Program-made: the position numbers and the translations under genes
In this document: in pieces, positions 40,152 through 60,814 of the stretch
Numbering within the stretch: position 1 is the stretch's first letter
Layout of the letters: every line of letters starts with the position of its first letter
The notes under the pieces: generated by a model
Databases searched by the model: none
What the model saw: the letters and a program-made list of their open reading frames with translations, nothing else
What the model was told of the DNA's origin: nothing
Assembly: GCF_032397745.1 (NCBI RefSeq)
Contig: NZ_CP135921.1
Location: forward strand, 2,480,001-2,544,000
DNA length: 64,000 nt
Origin: Bradyrhizobium prioriisuperbiae
GTDB lineage: Bacteria; Pseudomonadota; Alphaproteobacteria; Rhizobiales; Xanthobacteraceae
Direction: 5' to 3'

Positions 40152-40964
40152 GTGAGACGATTGAGGCTTCTCAAGATCATACGACCAAACCGGCGCGACG
40201 ATGTCCAGCCGGATCACCGATCCGAGCGGCCGGCCGATGGCCCCGCGCGGACTGGCCTCGTGTTTGATCGTGTCGGTTTCCGTCGCGACAACCGTCAGAT
40301 CTTTGATGGCCTGTCGCTGGATTTGTCCGAGCGGCGGATCGGTCTGATCGGCGACAACGGTTCGGGAAAAAGCACGTTGCTGCGGCTGGCCAACGGCTTG
40401 CTGCGCGCCGAGCAGGGTGAGGTGCTGATCAACGGCCGCTCCATGACGCGTGGCCGCGACGAATTGCAGGACGCCGTTGGCTTTGTGTTCCAGAATCCGG
40501 ATCATCAGATTATCTTCCCGACAGTCGGTGAGGAAATCGCCTTCGGCCTGCTCGAGCGCGGCGGTACGCCGGCGCAGGTGAAGGACCAGGTCGACGCTCT
40601 GCTCGTCCGGCATGACTGCACCGGGTGGAGCGATCGCGCCATCCACGAACTGTCCGAAGGGCAGAAGCAGCTCGTCTGCATCCTGGCCGTGATCGCCACA
40701 CAGCCATCGATCCTGCTGCTCGATGAACCGTTCTCCAGTCTGGATCTGCCGACGCGGACATCGCTGTCGACGCGGCTTGCGAGGCTCCCCCAGCACATCG
40801 TCATGGCCAGTCACGATCTTGATTTGCTCAGCGATTTCGATCGCGTGATCTGGCTGGACAAAGGGAGCGTGATGGCGGACGGGTCACCCGGCCAGGTATT
40901 GCCGGACTATCGCGCACACGCCGCGGCACGCGGTGCCGCCATGCTGGAGAGTAACGCCGAATGA
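40152..40964 (+). CDS. bioM: Biotin ECF transporter ATPase component
   Basis: About 270 residues from GTG 40152. The start is uncertain: GTG 40260 would give 234 residues beginning at the ATPase fold, and no strong ribosome site decides. Walker A GDNGSGKSTLLR, Q-loop VFQNPDHQIIFPTV (ECF-type), signature LSEGQKQLVCILA, Walker B ILLLDEPFSSLD, H-loop ASHD. Energises uptake with BioN and BioY, encoded directly downstream. The stop overlaps the bioN ATG (ATGA). No BioR-type box was seen upstream. Confidence 0.88.
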   Translation: MRRLRLLKIIRPNRRDDVQPDHRSERPADGPARTGLVFDRVGFRRDNRQIFDGLSLDLSERRIGLIGDNGSGKSTLLRLANGLLRAEQGEVLINGRSMTRGRDELQDAVGFVFQNPDHQIIFPTVGEEIAFGLLERGGTPAQVKDQVDALLVRHDCTGWSDRAIHELSEGQKQLVCILAVIATQPSILLLDEPFSSLDLPTRTSLSTRLARLPQHIVMASHDLDLLSDFDRVIWLDKGSVMADGSPGQVLPDYRAHAAARGAAMLESNAE

Positions 40965-41572
40965 TGGGCGGATATCTCGCCCGCGCGACGTGGCTGCATC
41001 GGCTGCCGGCGGGTCTCAAGCTTGCGATGATCGCGGCCATCAGCATTGCGCTGCTGCCGGTGCAGGACTGGCGCTGGCTCGCGCTCTGCCTCGCCCTTGT
41101 CGGCGCTGTTTATGTCGCGCTGGGGCGCGAGGCGATGCGGCGCCTCGGCCTGTTCAAGCCGCTGCTGCCGCTGCTGATCATCATCGGCGGACTGCAGGGC
41201 CTGTCCAATCGGTGGGAAGACGGTGCGAGCGTGGTGTTGCGCCTGCTGGTGATGGTGCTCACGGCCGATCTCGTCACCATGACCACCACCATGACCGCGC
41301 TGATGCGGGCGGTCGAACCGCTGTTTCGCTTGCTTCGTCCGCTGGGCGTCAATTCACGAAAAATCGCGCTGGCGGTGGCGCTGGTGCTGCGCTTCATTCC
41401 GGTGCTGCTCGCCAACTGGCGCGCGCGCGAGGAAGCCTGGCGCGCACGTTCGCGGCGGCGGGTCCCGCTCAAGCTCGTTGTCCTGTTCCTGATCGAAACA
41501 TTGCGCCTGGCTGATCATGTTGGCGAGGCGCTCGATGCGCGCGGCTATGGCCGGACGCGCCGCCAACCCTGA
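40961..41572 (+). CDS. bioN: Biotin ECF transporter T component
   Basis: 203 residues, CbiQ/BioN family. It has about five hydrophobic segments (LAMIAAISIALLPV, LALCLALVGAVYVAL, LLPLLIIIGGLQGL, an internal LVLRFIPVLLANW). The conserved Ala-Arg-Gly coupling motif lies near the C-terminus (EALDARGYG). Transmits ATPase motion to BioY. The 4-bp ATGA overlap with bioM and the bioY start 10 bp after its stop indicate one operon. Confidence 0.93.
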   Translation: MMGGYLARATWLHRLPAGLKLAMIAAISIALLPVQDWRWLALCLALVGAVYVALGREAMRRLGLFKPLLPLLIIIGGLQGLSNRWEDGASVVLRLLVMVLTADLVTMTTTMTALMRAVEPLFRLLRPLGVNSRKIALAVALVLRFIPVLLANWRAREEAWRARSRRRVPLKLVVLFLIETLRLADHVGEALDARGYGRTRRQP

Positions 41573-41582
41573 GGAGACACCC

Positions 41583-42137
41583 GTGGAATCCCGAGCCATT
41601 GTTCGAATCTCACTTCTGGCCGCGATGATCGCGGTGCTGGGATTGCTGCCGACATTTCATCTTCCCGTTGCCGGCGGGGTGCCGATCACCGCACAGACAC
41701 TGGGCGTCATGCTGGCCGGCATCGTGCTCGGCGCGCGCCAGGGCGCGCTTGCGGTGTTGCTGCTGATCTTTGTGGTGGCGCTGGGCGTGCCGCTGCTTGC
41801 CGGCGGCCGTGGTGGCCTTGGCGTGTTCTTCGGTCCGTCAGTCGGCTTCCTCTTGGGATGGGTGCCGGGCGCCTTCGTCACCGGTTTCCTGATGCGGCGG
41901 CTTGCACAATGGCCGGTGTTTCCCAGCGCGCTGATTGCCGCGACCTTCGGCGGCATCCTGGTTGTCTATGCCTGCGGCATCCTGGGTCTCATGGTCATGG
42001 CGCGAATGAGTGTGTTGCAGGCAATCATGGCGACGGCCGTGTTCCTGCCCGGCGACATGCTGAAGGCATTCGCGGCGGCCTTCCTGGCGAAAGCGGCCGA
42101 TAGCGCCTATCCCGCGGCGTTGGAGCGCCGCGCGTGA
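41583..42137 (+). CDS. bioY: Biotin ECF transporter S component
   Basis: 184 residues from GTG 41583, backed by GAGGAGA about 7 bp upstream. About six membrane helices; VPITAQTLGVMLAGIVLGARQGALA and LPVAGG are BioY family marks, as is the Gly-rich GGRGGLGVFFGPSVGFLLGW loop. Substrate-capturing subunit with high affinity for biotin. Its stop overlaps the GTG of the next gene (GTGA), so the ligase is in the same transcript. Confidence 0.95.
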   Translation: MESRAIVRISLLAAMIAVLGLLPTFHLPVAGGVPITAQTLGVMLAGIVLGARQGALAVLLLIFVVALGVPLLAGGRGGLGVFFGPSVGFLLGWVPGAFVTGFLMRRLAQWPVFPSALIAATFGGILVVYACGILGLMVMARMSVLQAIMATAVFLPGDMLKAFAAAFLAKAADSAYPAALERRA

Positions 42138-43615
42138 GTGTAACGGCGGCGCTGGCGCATCACGCTGCCCGCACGCCGGATCGCGACGCGCTGGTGTTCG
42201 AAGATCAGCGGATCGGGTGGCGGAGCCTCAGCGAGGAAGTCGATCGGCTGGCGGCGCTCATCGCCGCCCGCACGCCCGACGGCAGCGGTATCGCGCTGCA
42301 TCTGCCGACCGGTGTGGCGCTGTCTCTGTTGTTCCTCGCGGCGGCGCGCGCGGGACGGGAGGCGCAGGTCCTGGATCCGGACTGGCCGCTCGACATGGCC
42401 CGCACGATCCTGGCGCAGCTGTCGCCGGCCCTGGTCATCAGTTCGGATCCGCGGTTGGCCGGCGATCACACGATTGTTCTGGCCGATCCCTATATGCCGC
42501 TGATGCAGCTCGCATCGGCTTTTGGCGCTTCGGCCGACGCGATCCCCAGCTCGGAGCCAGACGATCTGCTGCCGTTCTATGTCGGCTTTACCTCCGGTTC
42601 GACCGGAATGCCCAAGGGCTATCGCCGCCATCACCGGTCCTGGACCGAGAGTTTTCGCCATGATGGACTGGAGTTCGGCATCGGCCCCGATGACGTGATT
42701 CTCGCGCCGGGAACGCTCACCCACTCGCTGTTTCTTTATGCCCTGATGAATGGGCTCAATGTCGGCGCCCGTGTTATCCTGTGCCGGCGGTTCCGGCCCG
42801 ACACGGTGGTGCGTCTCATCGAATACGAGCGCGCGACCGTTCTTTATGGCGTGCCGACCCAGTTGCAACTGACGATCAAGGCTGCGGGCGATCGGTCCCT
42901 GGCAACCATGCGCTGGGTGCTGTCCTCCGGGGCCAAATGGCCCGCCGAGACCAGGCAGCAATTGCTGCGCCTGTTTCCTGCGGCGCAATTTGCGGAGTTC
43001 TACGGCGCGTCGGAGACGAGCTTCATGACAGTCGCGAAAGCCAGCGAGAGCAATCCCGAGACGTCGGTCGGGCGTGCTTTTTCCGGCGTCGATGTGACCA
43101 TCCGTGATCAGTCCGGTCGCCGTCTACCGGCGGGAGAGCCCGGCTATGTTTTTGTCGAGAGTGCGTTTCTGTTCATGGACTACGCTTGCGGGGAGGATGA
43201 TTTGTTGCGCGAGGGCGATGCCATGTCGGTCGGCGACATCGGCTTTCTCGATGCGCGCGGCTTCCTCCATCTGGTTGGGCGCGCCAGCCGCAAGATCGTA
43301 ACGTCAGGCAAGAATGTCTATCCGGAGGAGATCGAACGTGTGCTCGAACGCCATCCCGCGATTGTATCGGCCGCTGTGCTTGGCGTGCCCGATGCCGATC
43401 GAGGCGAGCGTTTGATCGCGCTGCTGCGGCTGCAGGGGGAAGCCTCCGTCACCAGTGCGCAATTGATCGCCCATGCGCGCGCGGAGTTGCCGCTGCCCAA
43501 GGTGCCGCGCGTCTATGCGGCCGTGCCGGAATGGCCGTTGACGCGCTCCGGCAAGACCGATTTCGAGACGCTGCGCCGCGGCTGGAGCGCGGGCCTCTTT
43601 GCGAGGCTGCCGTGA
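42134..43615 (+). CDS. AMP-binding acyl-CoA ligase linked to the biotin transporter
   Basis: 493 residues, ANL superfamily. Core motifs: FTSGSTGMPKG (A3, ~152-162), YGASETS (A5), SVGDIGFLDARGFLHLVGR (A7/A8), SGKNVYPEEIE, and the catalytic Lys in PLTRSGKTDF near the C-terminus. Activates a carboxylic acid to its CoA thioester, acid unknown. GTGA overlaps with bioY before and the thiolase after tie it to biotin uptake. The same pairing of a BioY gene with an acyl-CoA ligase and a thiolase is known in Bacillus subtilis (yhfU-yhfT-yhfS, from memory), so a conserved biotin- or pimelate-related job is a fair inference. Confidence 0.85.
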   Translation: MSVTAALAHHAARTPDRDALVFEDQRIGWRSLSEEVDRLAALIAARTPDGSGIALHLPTGVALSLLFLAAARAGREAQVLDPDWPLDMARTILAQLSPALVISSDPRLAGDHTIVLADPYMPLMQLASAFGASADAIPSSEPDDLLPFYVGFTSGSTGMPKGYRRHHRSWTESFRHDGLEFGIGPDDVILAPGTLTHSLFLYALMNGLNVGARVILCRRFRPDTVVRLIEYERATVLYGVPTQLQLTIKAAGDRSLATMRWVLSSGAKWPAETRQQLLRLFPAAQFAEFYGASETSFMTVAKASESNPETSVGRAFSGVDVTIRDQSGRRLPAGEPGYVFVESAFLFMDYACGEDDLLREGDAMSVGDIGFLDARGFLHLVGRASRKIVTSGKNVYPEEIERVLERHPAIVSAAVLGVPDADRGERLIALLRLQGEASVTSAQLIAHARAELPLPKVPRVYAAVPEWPLTRSGKTDFETLRRGWSAGLFARLP

Positions 43616-44745
43616 GCGCCGTCTTCATGGTCGCCGCGCGGCGCACTGCGGTTGCTCCCCGCAATGGCGCCTTCGCCCAGATCGAGGCGATCGATCTGGC
43701 TGACACGGCGATCCGTGCGGTGCTTGACGATGCCGGCTTTCCGCCTGCGGATGTCGACGACGTGATGTTCGGCAATGCGCTCTACGGAGGTGGCAATCCT
43801 GCGCGGGTAGCCGCGCTGAAGGCGGGGCTGCCGGTCACGGTCCCGGCGAGCACGGTCGACACCCAGTGTTGCGCCGGCCTCGATGCCATCCTGTTGGCGG
43901 CCGCGCGCATCAAGGCCGGCGAAGCCGATGCGATTGTCGCTGGCGGTGTCGAAAGCTTCAGCCGCGCGCCGCTGCGGGCGCGCAGCCCGAAACAGCCGGG
44001 CGAGATTCCCGAACCCTATGACAGGCCGCCGTTTACGCCATGGCCGGAGCGCGATCCGGATATGATCCCGGCCGCCGCGACGCTGGCGGAGGAGTGGGAC
44101 ATCAGCCGCGAAGCTCAGGAGGCCTTCGCGATCGAAAGCCATCGCAAGGCCGTCGCGCGTGGCTGCCCCACGCAGGAATTCGTTCCGGTGTCCGGCCTGG
44201 TGCGTGATCCCTTTGCGCGTCGTCTCAGCATGGGTCTCTGCACGCGTCTTCCGGTTCTCGCCGGCAATGCGAGTCATGGCGTCACCGCGGCGACCATCGC
44301 CGTCGAGGCCGATGCCGCCGCCGCGGTCCTGCTGGTATCGGAGACGGCGCTATCGCGCTGTCGCTTGGCGGGCCGCGCTGTTCGCCTCGTCGGCGGAGCG
44401 CGTTCGGGCGGTGATCCGGAGCGTCCGGGTCTTGCACCGGTCGGCGCGGCGCGCACTGCGCTGCTGCGCGCGAGACTGTCCGCAGCGTCGCTGTCGGTTG
44501 CGGAAATCATGGAAGCCTTCGCCGTTCAGGCCATGATCTGTATCCAGGAGCTCGCGCTCGATCCTGCTCGTGTCAATCCCGGCGGCGGCGCGCTGGCGCG
44601 CGGACATCCGATCGGCGCTTCCGGCGCGATTATTGCCGTGCGGGTGTGGCAGGAGTTGCAGGCACAATCCTCGGGGGCAACAGGACTGGCGGCGATCGCG
44701 GCGGCGGGCGGGCTTGGCTCCGCCTTGCTGTTGTGCGCGGAGTGA
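43612..44745 (+). CDS. Thiolase-family protein with altered active site
   Basis: 377 residues from GTG 43612. The nucleophile Cys is present in VDTQCCAGLDAI and the catalytic His in ARGHPIGASGA. Two residues of standard acetyl-CoA acetyltransferases are changed: the Asn of NEAF is Met (IMEAFAVQ), and the C-terminal Cys of CxGGG is Ala (AIAAAGGLG). The loop after AGNASHG also diverges. It may therefore perform a condensation or thiolysis with different chemistry, or be a specialised paralogue. Overlaps the ligase stop by 4 bp and is followed 5 bp later by a MaoC-like gene. Confidence 0.83.
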   Translation: MSAVFMVAARRTAVAPRNGAFAQIEAIDLADTAIRAVLDDAGFPPADVDDVMFGNALYGGGNPARVAALKAGLPVTVPASTVDTQCCAGLDAILLAAARIKAGEADAIVAGGVESFSRAPLRARSPKQPGEIPEPYDRPPFTPWPERDPDMIPAAATLAEEWDISREAQEAFAIESHRKAVARGCPTQEFVPVSGLVRDPFARRLSMGLCTRLPVLAGNASHGVTAATIAVEADAAAAVLLVSETALSRCRLAGRAVRLVGGARSGGDPERPGLAPVGAARTALLRARLSAASLSVAEIMEAFAVQAMICIQELALDPARVNPGGGALARGHPIGASGAIIAVRVWQELQAQSSGATGLAAIAAAGGLGSALLLCAE

Positions 44746-44750
44746 GCCCG

Positions 44751-45209
44751 ATGCCGCTGCGTATTCCCCGCCCCGCAGATCTTGCCACGTTGGTCGGAAC
44801 CGAGCTTTCGCCGAGTGACGAATTCGCGCTGAACCAGGCCGATGTCGATCGTTTTGTCGAAATCAGCGGCGATCGCCAGTGGATTCATTCGGACACCGAA
44901 CGTGCCCGGGCGGAATTGCCTGAAGGCCGGACCATCGTGCCCGGTAATCTGCTGCTGGCGCAAATCCCGCGGCTGCTGCAGCAGGTCTATGTCGTCGAAC
45001 GCTTCGCGAAGTGTCTTGTCGCGGGTTACAGCCAGGTCCGCTTCCGGCAAATTGTCGGCACCGGGACCCCGCTGGCGTTGCGGGTGAAACTGGTGTCGGT
45101 GACGCCGACACGCAGCTTCGTCCGGGTCGAAACCGAATGCACCATCATGATTGCTGACGATCGCAAGCCGGCGCTGACGGTCCAGGTGACCGACCTGTAT
45201 TACGAATAG
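44751..45209 (+). CDS. MaoC-like (R)-hydratase/dehydratase domain protein
   Basis: 152 residues from ATG 44751, preferred because GGAG lies 8 bp upstream; an in-frame GTG at 44742 would overlap the thiolase stop as in the preceding pairs. Single hot-dog domain with the hydratase-2 motif SGDRQWIHSDTERA (Asp and His) and GRTIVPGNLLLAQIPRLLQQ. Family members hydrate enoyl-CoA or dehydrate 3-hydroxyacyl thioesters. Together with the ligase and thiolase it forms a partial beta-oxidation or elongation-like set downstream of bioMNY. Last gene before the IS element. Confidence 0.82.
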   Translation: MPLRIPRPADLATLVGTELSPSDEFALNQADVDRFVEISGDRQWIHSDTERARAELPEGRTIVPGNLLLAQIPRLLQQVYVVERFAKCLVAGYSQVRFRQIVGTGTPLALRVKLVSVTPTRSFVRVETECTIMIADDRKPALTVQVTDLYYE

Positions 45210-45221
45210 CGGCGGCGGGAC

Positions 45222-47245
45222 TAACCCGTCTTCGCGGATTGGCGGGTTTTTGAAGGGTCGACATCAGCCAGATCAATGGCTTAGCTCGAAAGGTCTTCAC
45301 TACAGCGGCTGGCTTGGTTGACGGCGGCTGTGGTGATCCTGGGCGGCGGTTGCGGTGGCAGCCGGAGCTTCAGCCGATCAATCAGGAGCTGCAGTTCCGG
45401 TTCGGGATGGGTGTAGCGGGTGAGCAGGATCTCGCGCCCATCTGTGGTCGGCAGATGGACGTCGATCATCTGGATGGCGGCGAACTTTTCGAGCGCGCGA
45501 CGTGCGGTCAAGCCCGATGCGAGGGCATGAAGCCGGCGCGTCAGCGTGACCTGCATGCAGTAGGCCAGGAAGGCGATGAAGATGTGGGCCTCGATCCGGA
45601 CCTCGTCTTGATGGAACACCGGACGAATCGCCAGGTCGCCCTTGAGATTGCGGAACGCTTCTTCGACGGCAACGAGTTGGACGTAGTATTGCCAGAGCTG
45701 GGCGGGGTCATTGTCGGCGAGGTTGGTGCGCAGCAGATAACGGCCTTCGCGACGTCGGGTCTTTCTCAATCTGTTTCGATTGAGTGCGAAGCTGAAGCTC
45801 GGGCGCTGCTTGTCGATCTCGATATCGACCAGACGCCAGGCCGCCGGCGCTTTGGATCGCGCGCCGCCAAGCTTCATCAGCAATTCTTCGCGCGTGATCT
45901 CCATCGCATCGATTTGCCTGAGCCGTTTCCACAACCACTTCAGCTGCCGCCGGCGCATCGCGCGTTCCTTACTGATCCGATCGGCGCTTTGAGCGAAGAC
46001 GTAGAGCTCACCGTCCTCGGACAACAATTTGACCTGCACGCCCTCCCGCGCGTCCTGCCAGGGCTTGTCCAGCAGATGCTTCTCCAGCCGGTTCAGGCGT
46101 CCCTTCGGCGTACCGACCAGATATTGCACTGGCGGATCGCTGTGGCGCATTTCGGCCAGCACGGCCTCGGTCGGCACGCCACGATCCATCACCCAGACCC
46201 GGCGCGCCTTGCCGTATTGCTGCTCGATCTTGGCAAGGAACATCCGCAGTGTCTTGTTGTCAGCGGTGTTGCCGGGCAGCACCTCGTAAGCCAACGGCAA
46301 GCCATCGGGCGTCACCACCAGCGCGATTACCACTTGCGGGCAATCCGGCCGCTTGTCGCGGCTGTAGCCGTGGCGGCGCTTGCTGCCTTCCGGCAAGTCC
46401 GATGCGTTGACCTCGAAGTAGCTGCTGGTCAGATCGTACAGCAGCACGTCGAAGTCGGCATTGAACAAATCGCGCCAACGCCCGACCAGATGCGAGAATA
46501 GCGCCTCCTTATGCGCGAGCAGCAGATCGTGGCAGGCATAGAGTTTGTGCTCTTCCGCGAGGCCGAAGTCTGCTCCCAGAAGATCGGCCATTGCGCTCTG
46601 ACCGAACCATTGCCGATGCAGCCGCCACTCGCTGCCCGGCGCGATCAGCCGGTAGGTTGCCAGCACCTGCAGGATCTGGTCCCACCTCGTCTTCTTGCGG
46701 CTTGGCGGCAGCCGCTCTGCCCAGAACCAATCGAGCTGAAGCTCCTGCCACAACTGTCCGGCCAGCCAGCAGGCGCCCCATTGCCGCGGACGTCGAAGCT
46801 GCATCTCGGACAGGCGTAGCTGGACGATCGACGCATCGCCCGCGATCGCCTCGCATCGATCTTCCGGAAACAGCGACAACGTTCGCGCATGTCCGGCGTC
46901 TTCGTCGAGCACGTCGATCGCCTTGCGCCACGCCGCTGCCTGCGAGGAATTGATCTCACCGAGATACAGCACATGCCGCTGCACCACTCGCCCGTTATCG
47001 AGACGCTTGTTCTCGACAACGTTCCAGTAGCTGTGCGTCTTGCCGTTCTTCTTTCGCTCGGTGCGTCGCAGGAACATGGCGCTGCGAATCTATCCGCACC
47101 GTCACGTCATTGGGAATCCGGTAGGTCTTCACTACAGCCGTTTTCGGCCGATTCCGGACACCTCACCCTTTGCAGATCAAAGACTTAGCTCGCCAAAAAA
47201 TCGCAAAATCGCGATTTTCCAGCGCGAATCCGCGAACTCGGGCTA
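45222..47245 (-). mobile_element. IS1634-family insertion sequence, apparently intact
   Basis: About 2.02 kb. Imperfect 19-bp terminal inverted repeats: TAACCCGTCTTCGCGGATT at the left, and TAGCCCGAGTTCGCGGATT when the right end is read inward (3 mismatches). A single 598-codon transposase fills most of it. Two short direct repeats occur near both ends: AGGTCTTCACTACAGC at 45291 and 47123, and CAGATCAA(N4)TTAGCTCG near 45269 and 47176. No clear target-site duplication was found, so the ends are provisional. Confidence 0.8.
45281..47077 (-). CDS. IS1634 family transposase
   Basis: 598 residues, full length for the family. N-terminus FLRRTERKKNGKTHSYWNVV. DDE triad region: first Asp in VLLYDLTSSYFEVN, second Asp in RVWVMDRGVPTEAV, Glu in AVEEAFRNLKGDLAIRPVFH, with the C-terminal insert YCMQVTLTRRLHAL. 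No stop or frameshift, so it may be active. It cuts and rejoins the element ends. The 3' end of the gene overlaps one of the internal direct repeats. Confidence 0.93.
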   Translation of the reverse strand: MFLRRTERKKNGKTHSYWNVVENKRLDNGRVVQRHVLYLGEINSSQAAAWRKAIDVLDEDAGHARTLSLFPEDRCEAIAGDASIVQLRLSEMQLRRPRQWGACWLAGQLWQELQLDWFWAERLPPSRKKTRWDQILQVLATYRLIAPGSEWRLHRQWFGQSAMADLLGADFGLAEEHKLYACHDLLLAHKEALFSHLVGRWRDLFNADFDVLLYDLTSSYFEVNASDLPEGSKRRHGYSRDKRPDCPQVVIALVVTPDGLPLAYEVLPGNTADNKTLRMFLAKIEQQYGKARRVWVMDRGVPTEAVLAEMRHSDPPVQYLVGTPKGRLNRLEKHLLDKPWQDAREGVQVKLLSEDGELYVFAQSADRISKERAMRRRQLKWLWKRLRQIDAMEITREELLMKLGGARSKAPAAWRLVDIEIDKQRPSFSFALNRNRLRKTRRREGRYLLRTNLADNDPAQLWQYYVQLVAVEEAFRNLKGDLAIRPVFHQDEVRIEAHIFIAFLAYCMQVTLTRRLHALASGLTARRALEKFAAIQMIDVHLPTTDGREILLTRYTHPEPELQLLIDRLKLRLPPQPPPRITTAAVNQASRCSEDLSS

Positions 47246-54688: not shown

Positions 54689-55471
54689 TCAGGGTTGCCG
54701 CAGCGAGGCAACGCTGCCGGCAATGTTGTCGGCGAGGGCTTTGACCAGCGGGACATAACGCTGGACGACATCGGCCCGGTCCAGTGCGGAGACGAAATAA
54801 GTCATCCCCACCGTGGCCAGCACCTTGCTGTCGCTGATGATCGGCACCGCGATGGTGCCCGACGAGCGCGGCTCCACCATGGGATCACGCTCGGCAAAGC
54901 CCTGCTTGCGCACCGCCGCCAACAGCGTCAGCGCCCGCTTGCGATCCGCGGCCAGCCGGTCTTCCGGCTCCTTCGAGCGGGCCAGCATGTCCAGCAGCAT
55001 GGAGCGTTCGCCCACCGGGCAGAATGCGAGATAGGCGCGGCCGAGCGCCCGGCACAGCAGGCTGAGATGCATGTTGATGGTGCCATGGAACGGCGATACC
55101 GGGCTCTGCGGAATGGTGCTGAAGCGGACGATCACCGAGCTCCGATCGAGCACGGCGATGGCCAGCGGCCACTGATACTGTTCGGTGAAGGCCAGTGTCC
55201 ATGGACGCGCCGCCTCCACCACCAGTGGATCGCCGTGAAAGCCGTAACTCAGGGACATCACCCGCGAGGCGACGGAATAGCCGCCCTGGTGCGGATCGTT
55301 GACCGCATAGCCCATCGCACACAGCGACTTCATCAGCCGCACCACTGTGGACTTCGGCAGCCGCGTGGCGCGATGCAGCACATCGATCGACGCCACCCGA
55401 TGGCGGTTAAGTTCCTCGAGCAGGCGCAGCGTGCGCGCGGCGGCCTCGACGGTGTCGGATTTCAGCGGCAA
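54689..55471 (-). CDS. IclR family transcriptional regulator
   Basis: 260 residues from TTG 55471, supported by AGGTGG upstream and by the family N-terminus. Winged HTH: RTLRLLEELNRHRVASIDVLHRATRLPKSTVVRLMKSL. The C-terminal effector domain runs from FHGDPLVVEAARPWTLAFTEQ to IAVPIISDSKVLATVGMTYF. It is transcribed divergently from a five-gene catabolic cluster and carries a perfect palindrome 9 bp before its start, so it likely represses itself and/or controls the cluster in response to an acidic effector, as IclR regulators often do. Confidence 0.9.
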   Translation of the reverse strand: MPLKSDTVEAAARTLRLLEELNRHRVASIDVLHRATRLPKSTVVRLMKSLCAMGYAVNDPHQGGYSVASRVMSLSYGFHGDPLVVEAARPWTLAFTEQYQWPLAIAVLDRSSVIVRFSTIPQSPVSPFHGTINMHLSLLCRALGRAYLAFCPVGERSMLLDMLARSKEPEDRLAADRKRALTLLAAVRKQGFAERDPMVEPRSSGTIAVPIISDSKVLATVGMTYFVSALDRADVVQRYVPLVKALADNIAGSVASLRQP

Positions 55472-55479
55472 CGGCTCTA

Positions 55480-55494
55480 TTCCACCTGGTGGAA
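55480..55494. promoter_or_regulatory. Candidate IclR operator
   Basis: TTCCACC-T-GGTGGAA is a perfect 15-bp palindrome in the divergent region between the IclR gene and the aldolase, 9 bp upstream of the IclR start and ~115 bp upstream of the aldolase. Its size and symmetry resemble known IclR-family sites. Confidence 0.55.
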
Positions 55495-55610
55495 CGACGG
55501 GGATTAGCTATGGCCGAAAGCCGACCTCGCTGCAATGGTCCGGCTAACGCCATGGCGCGGCGCCGAAATCCGGCGCTGACGTCGATCAAAAGCCTTTCGG
55601 GAGGATCAGC

Positions 55611-56441
55611 TTGTCCGGTGACGTCATCAGACCACATTATTCCACGTTCCGCCGCAGGTTCACCGACCGGCAGCCGGCTGTCGGCAGCTTCATCAAGACA
55701 CCGACCACGCACGCCACCGAGATCTTCGGCGCGCTCGGCTACGACTTTGTCGTGATCGACGAGGAGCATGCGCCGTTCGACCGCGCCATGACCGACGTGG
55801 TGCTGCTGGCTGCGCGGGCCAGCAACCTTGCCGGCATCGTTCGGGTGTCGTCGGACGATCCGGCAAAAATCCTGTCCGTCCTGGACTGCGGCGCGGCGGG
55901 CGTGCTGGTGCCGCATGTTGCCAGTGTGGAGAAGGCGCAGGCCGTGGCCGCGGCGGCGCGTTACCGCGGTGGCAAGCGCGGCTATTCCGGCTCGCCCCGC
56001 GCCGGCGGCTACGGCGCCACGCCGATGTGGAGCCTGGTCGAGGAGCAGGACGCCTCGGTGTGCACCATCGCCATGATCGAGGATCCGGAAGCTCTGGACC
56101 AGATCGACGCCATCGCCGCGGTTGACGGCATCCATGGCCTGTTCATCGGCCGTGGCGATCTCACCGTCGCGCTCGGCGCGAAATCATCTGCCGAACCAGC
56201 CGTGCGTGACGCGGTGACCCGCATCATTACCGCCGCGAACAAAGTCCGCAAACCGGTCTGCGTCATGGTGGGCAGCGTGGCCGAAGCCAAGGATTTCGCC
56301 GACCTCGGCGCCAGCGCCTTCATCATCTCCTCGGACCAGAGCCAGATGCGGCGCGCCGCAGCCCAAACCCTCACCGATTTCAAGAAGCTCACCCACACCC
56401 CGGAAGCCGCCCAGGAAGCCGCCCATGTATCACAGCACTGA
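55611..56441 (+). CDS. HpcH/HpaI aldolase family protein
   Basis: 276 residues from TTG 55611, backed by GGGAGGATCAG. Class II pyruvate aldolase fold: VGSFIKTPTTHATEIFGALGYDFVVIDEEHAPFD, the Arg in IVRVSS, GVLVPHVASVEKAQAVAAAARY, MIEDPEALDQIDAIAAVDGI with the metal Glu, and IGRGDLTVALG with Asp. Members split 2-oxo-4-hydroxy acids to pyruvate and an aldehyde. First gene of the cluster; the downstream cupin start overlaps it by 17 bp. Confidence 0.9.
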   Translation: MSGDVIRPHYSTFRRRFTDRQPAVGSFIKTPTTHATEIFGALGYDFVVIDEEHAPFDRAMTDVVLLAARASNLAGIVRVSSDDPAKILSVLDCGAAGVLVPHVASVEKAQAVAAAARYRGGKRGYSGSPRAGGYGATPMWSLVEEQDASVCTIAMIEDPEALDQIDAIAAVDGIHGLFIGRGDLTVALGAKSSAEPAVRDAVTRIITAANKVRKPVCVMVGSVAEAKDFADLGASAFIISSDQSQMRRAAAQTLTDFKKLTHTPEAAQEAAHVSQH

Positions 56442-57336
56442 TCCCCGCGCCGCGCTCACCGCAACGCCGATCGGCACCACGACGCCCGCGACACATTTCG
56501 CCGGCGCCGAATACGCCAAGTTCTATGAAACGCCCCCGGCCGAGACCAAGGACGGCGCGCGCACCTGGTATGCTCGCGGCCAGAACTTCATCATCGCCTA
56601 CAGCGACGCTGACAAAGGCGCCGTGCTGAACCGCGCCGACCAGCCCGACGAATATGTGGTGCTGCTGTCCGATCCCGGCGCCGGCGCCGAGATCGTCTGG
56701 GGCGGCCAGAAAGTGACCGTCAGCGGCCACTCCATCAGCTTCGTGCCGGCCGGCAAAAGCTCCGTGAAGCTGCTCGGGGCCGCCAAGGTCGTGCGCATGA
56801 TGACGGCGAAATCGGATGACCTCGCGCTGTTATGTTCGAATGCCGCCTCCTACGCGACCCCGCATCCCAATCTTCCGCCGTTCGAGGCCTGGCCCGATCC
56901 GGCCGGCGGCCCGAAGGTGCGGAGCTACAGCCTCGAGGTCGCGCCGACACCGGGACGGTTCGGGCGGATTTTCCGCGGCTCCACCTTCATGGTGAACTTC
57001 CTCGATCCGAAGAACGGCCCGCGCGACATCACCAAGATGTCGCCGCATCACCATGACGACTTCGAGCAGTGCTCGCTGGCGCTGGCCGGCACCTTCATCC
57101 ATCACCTGCGCTGGCCCTGGACCCCGGACATGGGGCAATGGCGCAACGATGATCATGAAGTCTGCGGATCGCCGTCCGTCACAGTGATCCCGCCGCCGTC
57201 AATCCACACCTCGCAGGCGATGGATCCGGGCCTCAATCTGCTGGTCGACATCTTCTGCCCTCCGCGGGTGGATTTTTCCGAAAAGCCGGGATGGGTGCTC
57301 AACGCCGACGACTATCCGATGCCGCACGCGATCTGA
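56425..57336 (+). CDS. Cupin-like protein of unknown function
   Basis: 303 residues, soluble. The C-terminal half has a cupin metal motif, MSPHHHDDFEQCSLALAG (HxHx3E), and a second-motif His in VIPPPSIHTSQAM, so it probably binds Fe or Mn. The N-terminal half is another beta-rich domain with GHSISFVPAG. Bicupin isomerases and dioxygenases share such a layout, but no particular enzyme is recognised. The 17-bp overlap with the aldolase and 12 bp to the next gene mark one operon. Confidence 0.75.
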   Translation: MYHSTDPRAALTATPIGTTTPATHFAGAEYAKFYETPPAETKDGARTWYARGQNFIIAYSDADKGAVLNRADQPDEYVVLLSDPGAGAEIVWGGQKVTVSGHSISFVPAGKSSVKLLGAAKVVRMMTAKSDDLALLCSNAASYATPHPNLPPFEAWPDPAGGPKVRSYSLEVAPTPGRFGRIFRGSTFMVNFLDPKNGPRDITKMSPHHHDDFEQCSLALAGTFIHHLRWPWTPDMGQWRNDDHEVCGSPSVTVIPPPSIHTSQAMDPGLNLLVDIFCPPRVDFSEKPGWVLNADDYPMPHAI

Positions 57337-57348
57337 AAGGCAGAGATC

Positions 57349-58326
57349 ATGGCCGAAACCACCACAACCTATCCCAACACCGTTCCCCTGCCGCCGCTGT
57401 CGCGCCCTGCCGAGGTCGCGGAGCTCCTGGTCGGCGCCATCGATCTGCATTGCCATTCGGGGCCCGCGGCAATGCCGCGGATTCTCGACCATCATGAAGA
57501 GCTGATGGACGCGGCCGCCGCAGGTTTCCGCGCCGTGCTCTACAAGGATCATTTCTACCCGGGCATGGCGCACGCCATCCTGCTGGAGAAACTGTTTCCC
57601 GAGACCAATGTGCGGCTGTACTCCGGCGTTGCGCTCAACAATGCGTCGGGTGGTATCAACCCCCACGCCGTCGACCACGCCATCAAGCTCGGCGGCAAGA
57701 TCGTCTGGATGCCGACCTTGTCGGCGGCGAACCATATCAATGTGCAGAGCAGCGGACAGGCCAAGACCTTTCCGAAGACCTCGCAGAAGATGCTCGACCC
57801 GACGCCACTGACCGCGCTCGACGCCAACGGCAAACTGACCGACGACACCAAGCAGGTGATCGACCTGATTGCGGAAGCCGACATCATCCTGTCCGGCGGC
57901 CATCTGCATGCCAGCGAACTGCATCTGCTGTTCGACGAGGCGGCCCGCCGCGGTGTCAAGAAGATGATGGTCAACCATCCGACCTACATCGTCGGCTGCA
58001 GCGACACCGATATCCGCCAGTTGGTGGCGCGCGGCGTGACGATGGAGCATTCGATCTGCATGTTCATCGACGGCAAGTCGAAGAAGTACAGCGCAGACGA
58101 CCTGGCGCACCTGATCGATGTGGCCGGCGTCGACAACACCATCCTGTCGTCGGACCTCGGCCTAGTGGGATCGCAACGTCCGGTCGACGGTTTCCGCAGC
58201 ATCACCCAGATGCTGCTGGACCTGCAGATGCCGCGCGACGCGATCAAAAAGCTGATCAGCGGCAATGCGGCAGCGTTCCTGAACCTGCCGGCGGAACGCA
58301 CGGCAGCGCAGCACGCCGCCGAATAG
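57349..58326 (+). CDS. DUF6282 family amidohydrolase-like protein
   Basis: 325 residues. Metal-site patterns of TIM-barrel hydrolases are visible: GAIDLHCHSGPAA, AVLYKDHFYPGMAHA, SGGHLHASELHLL, KMMVNHPTYIVG and TILSSDLGLVGS. These place it among amidohydrolase/PHP-like proteins, the DUF6282 group, whose substrates are unknown. A lactone or amide hydrolysis step in the catabolic cluster is the natural inference. No signal peptide. Confidence 0.82.
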   Translation: MAETTTTYPNTVPLPPLSRPAEVAELLVGAIDLHCHSGPAAMPRILDHHEELMDAAAAGFRAVLYKDHFYPGMAHAILLEKLFPETNVRLYSGVALNNASGGINPHAVDHAIKLGGKIVWMPTLSAANHINVQSSGQAKTFPKTSQKMLDPTPLTALDANGKLTDDTKQVIDLIAEADIILSGGHLHASELHLLFDEAARRGVKKMMVNHPTYIVGCSDTDIRQLVARGVTMEHSICMFIDGKSKKYSADDLAHLIDVAGVDNTILSSDLGLVGSQRPVDGFRSITQMLLDLQMPRDAIKKLISGNAAAFLNLPAERTAAQHAAE

Positions 58327-58390
58327 ACCTCAGACAACCACCCAACACCGCAGAGAGCCGTCGCAACGGCTCCGCCGGGAGGAATGAACT

Positions 58391-59734
58391 ATGAGTCCGA
58401 TCGATCACGACAGCGGCGATGTGCTGATGCGGCGCATCATGTGGCGGATCATGCCGCTGCTCACCGCCATGATGCTGCTGGCGGTGATCGACCGCTCCAA
58501 TGTCGGCTATGCCAAACTGCAGATGGTGCATAGCCTCGGCATGTCGGAGACCGCTTACGGCCTGGCGTCGTCGCTGTTCTTCATAGGCTATTCGCTGTTC
58601 GAGGTGCCGAGCGCACTGGCCGCGCACCGGTACGGCGCGCGGCTGTGGTTCGCCCGCATCCTGATCACCTGGGGCATCCTGACCGTCCTGCTCGCCTTCA
58701 CCTTCAGCGGTTCGATGTTCGCGGCGGTGCGTTTCCTGGTCGGCGTGGCGGAAGCCGGCGCCTATCCAGGCATCATTTTCTACCTGACCCTGTGGTTTCC
58801 CAAGCGCTACCGGGTGCAGGCGGTGGCGCTGCTGACCATCGGCAGCCCGCTGGGCAACATGTTCGGCTCGCTGTTCGGCGGCGCGCTGCTCGATTTCGAC
58901 GGCATGCTTGGCCTCGCCGGATGGCAATGGGTGTTCATCGTCACCGGCTTGCCGGCCATCATCCTGATGATGGTGCTGTTGAAGTATCTGCCGGACGGCC
59001 CCGCCACGGCCGGCTTTCTCAAGCCCGCCGAGAAGACCTGGCTCGCCCAGGAACAGAGCCGTGACGACAGCGCCCAGACCATGCATACCAATCCGTTGCG
59101 CGTGCTGATCGATCCGCGGGTGTGGTGGTTTTCCTTCGTCTACACCATGATCACGCTTGCGCTCTACGGCATCATCTACTGGCTGCCGACCGTGGTGAAG
59201 GGTTTCGGCACCACCGGCACGCAGAATGGACTGCTGAACGCGCTGCCCTGGGCGGTTGCGGCGGTGGTGCTGATCTGGTTGCCGCGTCATCTGCGCGAGC
59301 ATCGCACCGTGCTGATCGGCATGGCGCTGATCGCACTGTGCGGCATGGCCGCGTTCTTCACCTCGACGCTGCTGACGCAAAACTGGATGCGTTATGTGGC
59401 GCTCGCCGTCGGCACGCCCTGCATCTCGCTGCTGTTTCCGTGCTTCTGGTACCTGCCCTCGCAGATCTTCAAGGGTGCGCACGCAGCCGCGGCCATCGCC
59501 GCCATCAGCACCATCGGCAGCCTGGGCGGGTTTGCGGCGCAGAACCTGATGCCATGGGTGGCGCACTGGGCGGGCAGCCCGCTGGCCGCCATGGCGGTGC
59601 CGGCGGCCAGCCTCGCCGTGCTCGTTGTCAGCGCGCTGGTCATGCTGATGACCTGGCGGGTCGCGCCCGGCACGGGCTTCACGCTGACATCCGTTGCGGC
59701 GACGGAAGCAAAACGCTCGCAGGTTTTGTCGTGA
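58391..59734 (+). CDS. MFS transporter, anion:cation symporter type
   Basis: 447 residues with about twelve helices. LLAVIDRSNVGYAKL after helix 1 and YGARLWFARILITWGILTVLLAF fit the ACS family of organic-acid importers (tartrate, phthalate, glucarate-like). VAEAGAYPGIIFYLTLWFPKRYR is another family hallmark. It probably brings the cluster's carboxylate substrate into the cell. A GGAGGAATGAACT leader precedes the ATG. The next gene starts 31 bp after the stop. Confidence 0.92.
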   Translation: MSPIDHDSGDVLMRRIMWRIMPLLTAMMLLAVIDRSNVGYAKLQMVHSLGMSETAYGLASSLFFIGYSLFEVPSALAAHRYGARLWFARILITWGILTVLLAFTFSGSMFAAVRFLVGVAEAGAYPGIIFYLTLWFPKRYRVQAVALLTIGSPLGNMFGSLFGGALLDFDGMLGLAGWQWVFIVTGLPAIILMMVLLKYLPDGPATAGFLKPAEKTWLAQEQSRDDSAQTMHTNPLRVLIDPRVWWFSFVYTMITLALYGIIYWLPTVVKGFGTTGTQNGLLNALPWAVAAVVLIWLPRHLREHRTVLIGMALIALCGMAAFFTSTLLTQNWMRYVALAVGTPCISLLFPCFWYLPSQIFKGAHAAAAIAAISTIGSLGGFAAQNLMPWVAHWAGSPLAAMAVPAASLAVLVVSALVMLMTWRVAPGTGFTLTSVAATEAKRSQVLS

Positions 59735-59764
59735 TGTTATCGTCATCACTGGCGGCATGAGCGA

Positions 59765-60814
59765 ATGACCATCACCGAGACCGTCTCGCTTGGCGTCACG
59801 CAGGCCGCACAATTCCTGACCGACCTGTTCGCCCGCGCCGGCCTGTCGCCATCGGCTGCGGCCGAGATGGGTCTGGCGCTGGTCGATGCCGACCGGGCCG
59901 GCCTGCCCTCCCACGGCCTGTCGCAGGCCGAGATGTATCTGCGCCGCCTGCGGCTCGGCAGCATCTCGACGTTTGACGAGCCGCAGGTGGTGGACAGCCG
60001 CGCGGCCACCGCGGTGCTGGATGCCCGCGGCATGTTCGGCCATCTGGCCGGCCGCCATGCCATGGGACTCGCGATCGCGCGCAGCAAGGAATTCGGCATC
60101 GGCACGGTCGCCGTGCGCAACAGCTTTCATTTCGGCGCCGCGGGCCGTTATGCCCAGCAGGCCAGCGACCATGGCTGCATCGGGCTTGCCATGTGCAACA
60201 CCAAGCCGATGATGCCGGCGCCGGACGGCCTGACCAAACTGGTCGGCAACAATCCGCTCGCCATCGGCGTGCCGGCGCACGCACCGGACTTCGTGCTGGA
60301 CATGGCGTTGAGCGAAGCGGCACTCGGCAAGATCCGCACCTATGAGAAGGCCGGCCGATCGCTTCCGCCGGGATGGGCCGTCGATCGAGAGGGTGCGCCC
60401 ACCACGGATCCGACCGCAGCCATCGAAGGCATGCTGCTGCCCGCGGGCGGCGCCAAGGGCTTCGGCCTGGCGCTGGGCATCGACCTGATGTGCAGCCTGC
60501 TGGCGCAGGGGCCGGGCGGCGACAACGTGCCGCCGCTGTATGGCGACCTGTCGAAGCCGTTCGTCTGCTCGCTGCTGTTTATCGCCATCGACATCGCCCA
60601 TTTCCGCCCCGAAGCCGATTTCCGCGCCGATGCCGCGGCGGCGCTGGATCGCATCCGGTCGTCGCCTGCGAAGGCCGGCCCGCTGCGCACCCCGGGCGAG
60701 CGCAACTGGGCCACGCGCTACGGCGCCGACCTGATCCAGATCCCCCGCGCGCTCGCCACGTTGCTGGACGGACTCGCGGACGAACTGGGATCGTCGGAAC
60801 GGCTTGGCCACTGA
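59765..60814 (+). CDS. Ldh family (malate/L-lactate-type) NAD(P)-dependent oxidoreductase
   Basis: 349 residues, as usual for the YbiC/YiaK/ComC group, which oxidises 2-hydroxy acids or reduces 2-oxo acids with NAD(P). Catalytic His in AGLPSHGLSQAEMYL; also GHLAGRHAMGLAIARSKEFGIG, VRNSFHFGAAGRYA, VGNNPLAIGVPA and LPAGGAKGFGLALGIDLM. It would supply a 2-oxo acid to the aldolase encoded first in the cluster. Last gene of the cluster; no obvious terminator directly after it. Confidence 0.92.
   Translation: MTITETVSLGVTQAAQFLTDLFARAGLSPSAAAEMGLALVDADRAGLPSHGLSQAEMYLRRLRLGSISTFDEPQVVDSRAATAVLDARGMFGHLAGRHAMGLAIARSKEFGIGTVAVRNSFHFGAAGRYAQQASDHGCIGLAMCNTKPMMPAPDGLTKLVGNNPLAIGVPAHAPDFVLDMALSEAALGKIRTYEKAGRSLPPGWAVDREGAPTTDPTAAIEGMLLPAGGAKGFGLALGIDLMCSLLAQGPGGDNVPPLYGDLSKPFVCSLLFIAIDIAHFRPEADFRADAAAALDRIRSSPAKAGPLRTPGERNWATRYGADLIQIPRALATLLDGLADELGSSERLGH

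Follow-up and report, generated by a model that had tools for sequence, protein, structure and literature searches.

A predicted BioMNY biotin-importer operon carrying an acyl ligase and an atypical thiolase-fold protein in Bradyrhizobium prioriisuperbiae

An AMP-forming acyl ligase and a thiolase-fold protein are encoded directly after a predicted biotin importer in Bradyrhizobium prioriisuperbiae and, within the genomes that we surveyed, close relatives of these enzymes are found solely alongside that importer. This association, often in genomes that seem not to make biotin, points to an undescribed biotin-scavenging step. The best explanation, which we put forward tentatively, is that a BioY-dependent module remodels or salvages an imported biotin-like acid and so serves scavenging over de novo synthesis; the acid acted on would most probably be biotin itself, or else an acid that keeps the biotin ring and differs in its side chain.

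A six-gene operon built around a predicted biotin transporter

Within the analysed window (the whole stretch of 64,000 nucleotides), positions 40152-45209 are filled by six genes on the + strand:

40152..40964, + strand, bioM-like ECF ATPase (A component), 270 aa, Pfam ABC_tran (PF00005) 9.1e-28
40961..41572, + strand, bioN-like ECF T component, 203 aa, Pfam CbiQ (PF02361) 1.7e-12
41583..42137, + strand, bioY, ECF biotin S component, 184 aa from GTG 41583, Pfam BioY (PF02632) 6.9e-35
42134..43615, + strand, AMP-forming acyl ligase, 493 aa, Pfam AMP-binding and AMP-binding_C
43612..44745, + strand, thiolase-fold protein, 377 aa, Pfam Thiolase_N and Thiolase_C
44751..45209, + strand, MaoC-like hydratase, 152 aa, Pfam MaoC_dehydratas 4.6e-11
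45231..45246, + strand, terminator-like hairpin with a T run, directly 3' of the last gene (a consensus match alone, one of seven such sites)

As computed from the sequence, bioM and bioN overlap by 4 bp (40961-40964); bioY and the ligase gene (42134-42137) and the ligase and thiolase genes (43612-43615) do likewise. The thiolase and MaoC genes are separated by 5 bp. With GTG 41583 as the bioY start, 10 bp separate bioN from bioY; an alternative in-frame ATG at 41517 would instead make bioY overlap bioN. The start of bioM is uncertain (GTG 40152 or TTG 40122). The original prediction had taken the six genes to be one transcript; its 4-bp overlaps and gaps of 5-10 bp stand, and from them a single transcript is predicted as likely. 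Its description of the importer operon as fused to the enzymes is wrong for this window, where the genes overlap and encode separate proteins. The promoter and terminator scan of the region was uninformative: it gave seven terminator-like sites, where shuffled sequences averaged 3.7, and one promoter-like site, on the other strand. The order bioM-bioN-bioY-ligase-thiolase was found again in loci L005 and L006 and in further genomes, and chance was rejected as its source because it recurs in many genomes.

A BioY-family S component, a CbiQ-family T component and an ABC ATPase thus lie in one operon, as do all three components of BioMNY ECF biotin transporters, and from family membership the set is a predicted biotin transporter. 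The top NCBIfam matches of bioM are ECF ATPase models, with scores under their cut-offs, and the operon's bioY is the single BioY match in the whole 9.08-Mb genome.

Co-occurrence of the enzymes with BioY

The ligase and its thiolase were sought in three overlapping genome surveys, in which the best first-look candidates per genome were scored (13, 5 and 4) under strict cut-offs, so that the counts cover close relatives only and distant copies may be missed. In their union, which counts each genome once, the ligase or its thiolase was found in 33 genomes, related to one another and hence not independent counts, and BioY was present in all 33. The genes adjoin BioY in 23 of these genomes and are not adjacent to it in the other 10. 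Among the 119 genomes of the family sample, BioY was present in 17/17 ligase carriers against 33/102 of the others (Fisher p 6e-8). With 17 carriers in 119 genomes at E 1e-90, we rejected the idea that all relatives share this ligase as a general paralogue; named Bradyrhizobium proteins include ligases at about 60% identity to the window ligase.

Most BioY carriers of the class sample are, unlike the genome here, without the enzyme pair, this thiolase being present in only 8 of 142 BioY genomes. Plasmids of P. denitrificans (L090) and D. shibae (L088) carry bioMNY without the pair, one of the three own-genus genomes sampled has the ligase (G000), another genome has BioY without it (G043), and two ligase loci (L067, L069) gave no thiolase match. 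A single-sequence scan of genome contigs returned two loci.

Sets of BioY, ligase and thiolase were found in Hyphomicrobiales, Rhodobacterales and Azospirillum, in a single Pseudomonadota genome from a different class, and in two Actinomycetota records. Together with published work on Firmicutes, this spread supports the earlier proposal that an acyl-activating module linked to biotin is conserved in more than one phylum. The pairing is already published for Firmicutes, where B. subtilis yhfU-yhfT-yhfS (bioY, acyl ligase, thiolase) and S. aureus yhfS-yhfT are reported as BirA targets under biotin control: in B. subtilis, binding of BirA to the yhfU operator requires both biotin and ATP (PMC4016012), and in S. 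aureus a reporter driven by the yhfS-yhfT promoter is repressed by BirA when biotin is supplied (PMC6391492). In their accessible portions, papers that place YhfT and YhfS in the biotin regulon give no reaction of these proteins connected with biotin. The operon here has the same grouping in one gene run, and differs from yhfUTS in its dedicated BioM and BioN and its MaoC hydratase. As for possible orthology, the ligase scores under the cut-off of PRK07638 (its best NCBIfam match, 341.9 of 518 bits) and the thiolase under that of PRK06690 (among its top matches, 220.3 of 498 bits), models which we infer to stand for YhfT and YhfS. PRK06690 is also the top match of locus L099.

In S. meliloti, the reported effect of nolR is to lower the BioY, AMP-binding protein and thiolase genes together (PMC12445080 Table 1). 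These genes, bioB (BioY)-SMc00965-SMc00966, have the same order in L083, taken to be the same locus; unlike the window, L083 has a thiolase with Asn316, and the genes that come after it encode a thioesterase and a zinc dehydrogenase in place of MaoC. The window itself has no copy, with up to one mismatch, of TTATMKATAA, which we take to be the BioR palindrome, and this palindrome is present in 1 of 74 loci.

The genes for biotin synthesis follow a different pattern. The window's genome has bioB and no TIGR00347 (bioD) match at E 1e-5; an unrecognised substitute for bioD may exist. Its best bioA (357.6 of 405 bits) and bioF (360.8 of 426 bits) matches fall under the curated cut-offs, which decides little, because the bioF beside bioD in genome G028 is also under its cut-off (351.8 bits); bioF and bioA counts are uninformative in general, as related enzymes score near true ones. 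We scored bioD as present in 60 genomes. In 59 of them the match passed the cut-off, and G099 was included at 81.1 bits; the weaker matches of G076, G048, G064 and G086, none of which carries the ligase, were left out. In the family, bioD was present in 4 of 17 ligase carriers and absent from 13, and 8 of the 17 had neither bioB nor bioD. Among BioY carriers, neither bioD (4/17 with the ligase, 7/33 without) nor bioB (9/17 and 19/33) was associated with the ligase. In these surveys the module accompanies the importer and does not track the pathway of biotin synthesis.

Active sites of the module enzymes

The ligase carries adenylating motifs. Its structure neighbours are adenylating enzymes of all kinds and so do not discriminate, and the NCBIfam and PDB neighbours of both ligase and thiolase are general acyl ligases and thiolases.

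The thiolase-fold protein retains the nucleophilic Cys86 and His332 of the GHP motif (Cys89 and His348 in canonical thiolase), a pair kept in 45/45 thiolases of this type. The other two canonical residues are replaced, Asn316 of the NEAF motif by Met300 and Cys378 of the CxG motif by Ala363. The base Cys378, which serves in proton transfer, was present in 0/45 thiolases of this type compared to 9/9 controls, the latter being the profile's next-best matches, from eight genomes. Position 316 was Asn in 9, Met in 34, Val in 1 and His in 1 of the 45, a loss of Asn in 36, and Asn in all nine controls. In these two positions the module thiolases differ from biosynthetic thiolases of the Z. ramigera and C. 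acetobutylicum type. With the base lost and, in this clade, the Asn as well, the residues make acyl transfer or decarboxylating condensation a likelier activity for the window protein than that of an ordinary thiolase.

In its alignment with Rv0130 (2c2i), the MaoC-like protein, one of 47 proteins in its homologue search, retains the G-D....I-H stretch; the Asp and His of this G-D-x-x-x-I-H stretch are presumably the catalytic residues of hydratase 2. By tblastn the hydratase was found in 6 of 18 ligase loci, plus one Microvirga plasmid, and so was rejected as a core part of the module; it is a local addition. Accessory enzymes vary, with MaoC here and a nitroreductase, a thioesterase or a zinc dehydrogenase elsewhere. 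The nitroreductase is twice fused to the ligase (L097, L098), which ties the accessory enzyme to the ligase. As stated in the original prediction, neither dehydrogenase step is encoded here, no dehydrogenase being present among the operon's six genes.

A candidate salvage route and its alternatives

Salvage of a biotin-like acid is favoured because BioY is present in 33/33 carriers, including the 10 with non-adjacent genes, and because the ligase tracks BioY in the family (17/17 against 33/102) with no link to bioD or bioB. It is favoured further by the reported BirA and biotin control in B. subtilis and S. aureus and the joint nolR change in S. meliloti, and by the nitroreductase-ligase fusions and the reported properties of YhfT, which forms acyl-adenylates without going on to CoA thioesters and delivers the acyl-AMP to ACP (review PMC10988940). 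Against it stand the ligase in one of three own-genus genomes, the loci without a thiolase match, bioMNY without the pair on two plasmids, the thiolase in 8/142 BioY genomes and the reported part played by YhfT in acylating surfactin, which concerns fatty acids. The module may also be tied to BioY through a general dependence on imported biotin, with no action on a biotin-like acid.

In such a route, BioMNY would import the acid, as its family predicts. The ligase, with its adenylating motifs, would form an acyl-adenylate of this presumed substrate and pass the acyl group to a presumed acceptor: CoA, ACP or the thiolase-fold partner. The thiolase-fold protein would carry the acyl group on Cys86, and its remaining residues may then allow transfer or a decarboxylating condensation. 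Lineage-specific helpers, MaoC here and nitroreductase, zinc dehydrogenase or thioesterase elsewhere, may modify the chain at the beta carbon or free the product. A specific form of this, which we regard as improbable, is biotin repair: bisnor- or tetranorbiotin would be imported by BioMNY, activated by the ligase and handed to a carrier; two carbons would be added by a KAS-like, decarboxylating protein of the thiolase fold, which has the Cys-His pair without Cys378 and in some members keeps an Asn or a His; and MaoC, zinc dehydrogenase or nitroreductase would dehydrate and reduce the chain before the restored biotin is released.

The alternative that survives best, although we consider it unlikely, is a biotin-sparing lipid module. 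At biotin shortage acetyl-CoA carboxylase would fail, the ligase and thiolase would help to use or lengthen fatty acids, and the genes would lie beside BioY since both answer to shortage. Biotin-dependent BirA repression in Firmicutes fits this reading, as do the general acyl ligases and thiolases among the database neighbours and locus L098, where a bioYMN-ligase-thiolase run comes after carboxyl transferase, biotin carboxylase and acyl-CoA dehydrogenase. It is also consistent with the reported supply by YhfT of acyl chains for surfactin, single knockouts of YhfT and three other ligases cutting surfactin by 38-55% (PMC10988940). However, loss of Cys378 in 45/45 makes malonyl-independent chain building by reverse thiolysis unlikely, and no fatty acid synthesis genes were noticed beside the module, where most neighbours were judged by their first residues at a glance.

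Trapping or transfer of biotin itself appears improbable. The product of the ligase would be biotinyl-AMP or biotinyl-CoA, and the biotinyl group would then be passed to an acceptor by the thiolase-fold protein. This is in keeping with the tight importer linkage and with a protein that keeps its nucleophile Cys and His and has lost its Claisen residues, the pattern that a simple acyl transferase should show. However, biotin is already activated by biotin protein ligase, and the MaoC, nitroreductase, thioesterase and zinc dehydrogenase partners would be left unexplained.

The two options first offered for this operon have both lost ground. Beta-oxidation of the biotin valerate side chain to bisnorbiotin and acetyl-CoA is doubtful: ligase, hydratase and thiolase do supply three of the five activities of the cycle, and bisnorbiotin is reported as a human biotin metabolite (PMC9106636), but Cys378 is lost in 45/45 thiolases and Asn316 in 36/45, the hydratase is in just 6/18 loci, the six genes include no dehydrogenase, and the Firmicute genes are reportedly repressed, not induced, by biotin. 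Supply or salvage of pimeloyl thioester for biotin synthesis is very unlikely: the Streptantibioticus module (L081) adjoins bioB, bioD and a zinc dehydrogenase, bioD is in 4/17 family carriers, and BioZ is reported as a condensing enzyme of some alphaproteobacteria (PMC11089781), but the presence of bioB with no bioD match in the own genome and the rarity of bioD in carriers (13/17 without it, 8 of them without bioB too) argue against it.

Returning to salvage of a biotin-like acid, the survey makes a testable claim, that the module tracks the importer and has a thiolase without the ordinary thiolase base. If salvage is true, part of so-called biotin auxotrophy would be vitamer use, and damaged biotin could sustain bacteria of soil and roots.

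The operon and its neighbours

The genome around the window is a single contig of 9.08 Mb, in which the operon and its immediate neighbours are arranged as follows:

40152–45209, + strand: bioM, bioN, bioY, AMP-forming ligase, thiolase and MaoC hydratase, six genes filling the interval
upstream of the operon, opposite strand: rppH
45281–47077: IS1634-type transposase gene, starting about 70 bp past the operon's last stop

Successive operon genes were computed to be joined by 4-bp overlaps or by gaps of 5 and 10 bp, which confirms the tight joining described in the original prediction; the word "fused" in its title was too strong, since these are overlapping genes of separate proteins. The window ligase is 75% identical to that at a named locus of Bradyrhizobium macuxiense and 72% identical to that of another Bradyrhizobium. 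The position of the transposase is taken by different genes in L005 and L006, both from named Bradyrhizobium relatives. Further along, 54689–60814 holds an apparently catabolic cluster, i.e., an IclR regulator, an HpcH/HpaI aldolase, a DUF6282 protein, an MFS transporter and a malate/lactate dehydrogenase family protein.

Association of the ligase and thiolase with BioY

In the family sample of 119 genomes, BioY was found in 50 and the ligase in 17 (E 1e-90 or better); all 17 ligase carriers have BioY, compared to 33 of the 102 others (Fisher p 6e-8). By coordinates, 14 of the 17 ligases adjoin BioY, the exceptions (G044, G074 and G096) being of one genus, and among three genomes of the window's own genus only the window's carries the ligase. 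Among 337 Alphaproteobacteria, sampled with a requested completeness of at least 90%, BioY occurs in 142, and the thiolase-type profile set apart 8 genomes, with scores of 436–572 bits, from all others, which reached 323 at most; 7 of these 8 thiolases lie within 4 kb of BioY. The phylum sample of 397 Pseudomonadota gave the thiolase in 15 genomes (E 1e-105), beside BioY in 8, one of which (G597) belongs to another class and has a bioM-N-Y-ligase-thiolase-nitroreductase run (L126). With the three surveys merged and each genome counted once, 23 of 33 carriers have the genes adjacent to BioY; BioY was found in 9/9 phylum-sample carriers new to the count and in 33/33 overall.

Annotated records place BioY with ligase and thiolase on an Azospirillum plasmid (L077) and on Rhodobacterales plasmids (L079, L080 and L084–L087); the pair is encoded on the opposite strand in L079, L080, L085 and L086, and bioY has neither bioM nor bioN beside it in L084. 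The same company is seen in S. meliloti (L083, CP090106.1), where the ligase itself has no annotation. Searches by tblastn extend it to two Actinomycetota, Streptantibioticus (L081) and Nonomuraea (L082). The CP090106.1 record is labelled pSymB, yet is 3.72 Mb long, nearer to the size of the S. meliloti chromosome. Some loci run against the association. Within the stretches seen, bioMNY stands alone, lacking the pair, in P. denitrificans (L090) and D. shibae (L088); R. etli (L078) and three similar genomes (L123–L125) have thioesterase, ligase and thiolase and no BioY. L067 and L069 have bioMNY and the ligase with no thiolase match; two further genomes of their genus (L068 and L070) do have one. 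The Rhodobacterales ligases of L079 and L084–L087 appear to lack about 100 N-terminal residues, and the Pfam AMP-binding match of L079 begins only at profile position 170. At L096 and L098, bioY, bioM and bioN come after genes that resemble those for a carboxyl transferase, a biotin carboxylase and an acyl-CoA dehydrogenase (family assignments checked at L098 alone), as though the importer were clustered with a biotin enzyme.

Candidate reactions of the pair

According to earlier studies, the biotin-sensing repressor BirA binds the yhfU operator in B. subtilis, where yhfUTS (bioY, acyl ligase and thiolase) is among its three targets (PMC4016012), and controls bioY and yhfS-yhfT in S. aureus (PMC6391492, PMC7235819). 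In S. meliloti, nolR lowers bioB (BioY), SMc00965 (AMP-binding) and SMc00966 (thiolase) jointly (PMC12445080, Table 1). A biotin-related reaction for the pair was not found in the literature, surveyed largely by title and abstract. Rodionov and colleagues reportedly discussed yhfST in 2002.

The window ligase has intact adenylating motifs, and its structure model resembles both acyl-CoA ligases and adenylation domains and so points to no particular substrate. The accessory enzymes differ between lineages: MaoC occurs in 6 of 18 ligase loci, plus L091; a nitroreductase lies beside the pair in six Rhodobacterales records (L079, L080 and L084–L087) and in L097 and L098 forms one fusion protein with the ligase; a zinc dehydrogenase and a thioesterase accompany the pair in L083 and L123–L125. 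Between them, these enzymes cover redox chemistry, hydration and release on an acyl chain.

The explanation that we tentatively rank first is a module that depends on BioY and serves to salvage or remodel an acid resembling biotin. A lipid module is a rather less likely candidate, its main support being a review in which YhfT gives acyl-adenylates and no CoA thioester, feeds ACP, and on knockout lowers surfactin (PMC10988940). These data also suggest that the acceptor of the acyl group need not be CoA. Transfer or trapping of biotin is improbable, and the originally proposed beta-oxidation of the biotin side chain marginally more so.

Biotin synthesis genes in carrier genomes

The other original option, supply of a pimeloyl thioester for biotin synthesis, fared worst. 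In the family sample, bioD is present in only 4 of the 17 ligase carriers, compared to 56 of the 102 others (p 0.02). Both bioB and bioD are missing from 8 of the 17; seven genomes among these 8 are listed as 98–100% complete and one (G007) as 74%. When family genomes with BioY are compared among themselves, presence of the ligase is unrelated to that of bioD (p 1.0) or of bioB (p 0.77). Of the bioBFDA set looked for in the window's own genome, bioB is clear and lies near a 5-aminolevulinate synthase-like gene:

L007, 6922–7950 and 9550–10779: region of bioB and the 5-aminolevulinate synthase-like gene

No further bio gene was recognised in the 16 kb read around bioB, and the genome gave no bioD match. 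Its best bioA match (357.6 of 405 bits) and its best bioF match (360.8 of 426 bits) are under the cut-off and decide neither way, because in G028 a bioF that adjoins bioD reaches no more than 351.8. A second similar synthase gene lies at L076, 6782–8128. The carriers' bioD and bioB pattern and the lack of a bioD match in the window's genome therefore do not fit a general pimeloyl role, with unrecognised substitutes possible; this reading, favoured by the Streptantibioticus locus (L081), which sits with bioB and bioD, is very unlikely. The remaining probability belongs to some explanation outside these five. Four points appear to be new here: BioY is present in every surveyed carrier, the ligase occurs independently of bioD and bioB, the thiolases have lost Cys378 (the base of ordinary thiolases), and a nitroreductase is in some cases fused to the ligase.
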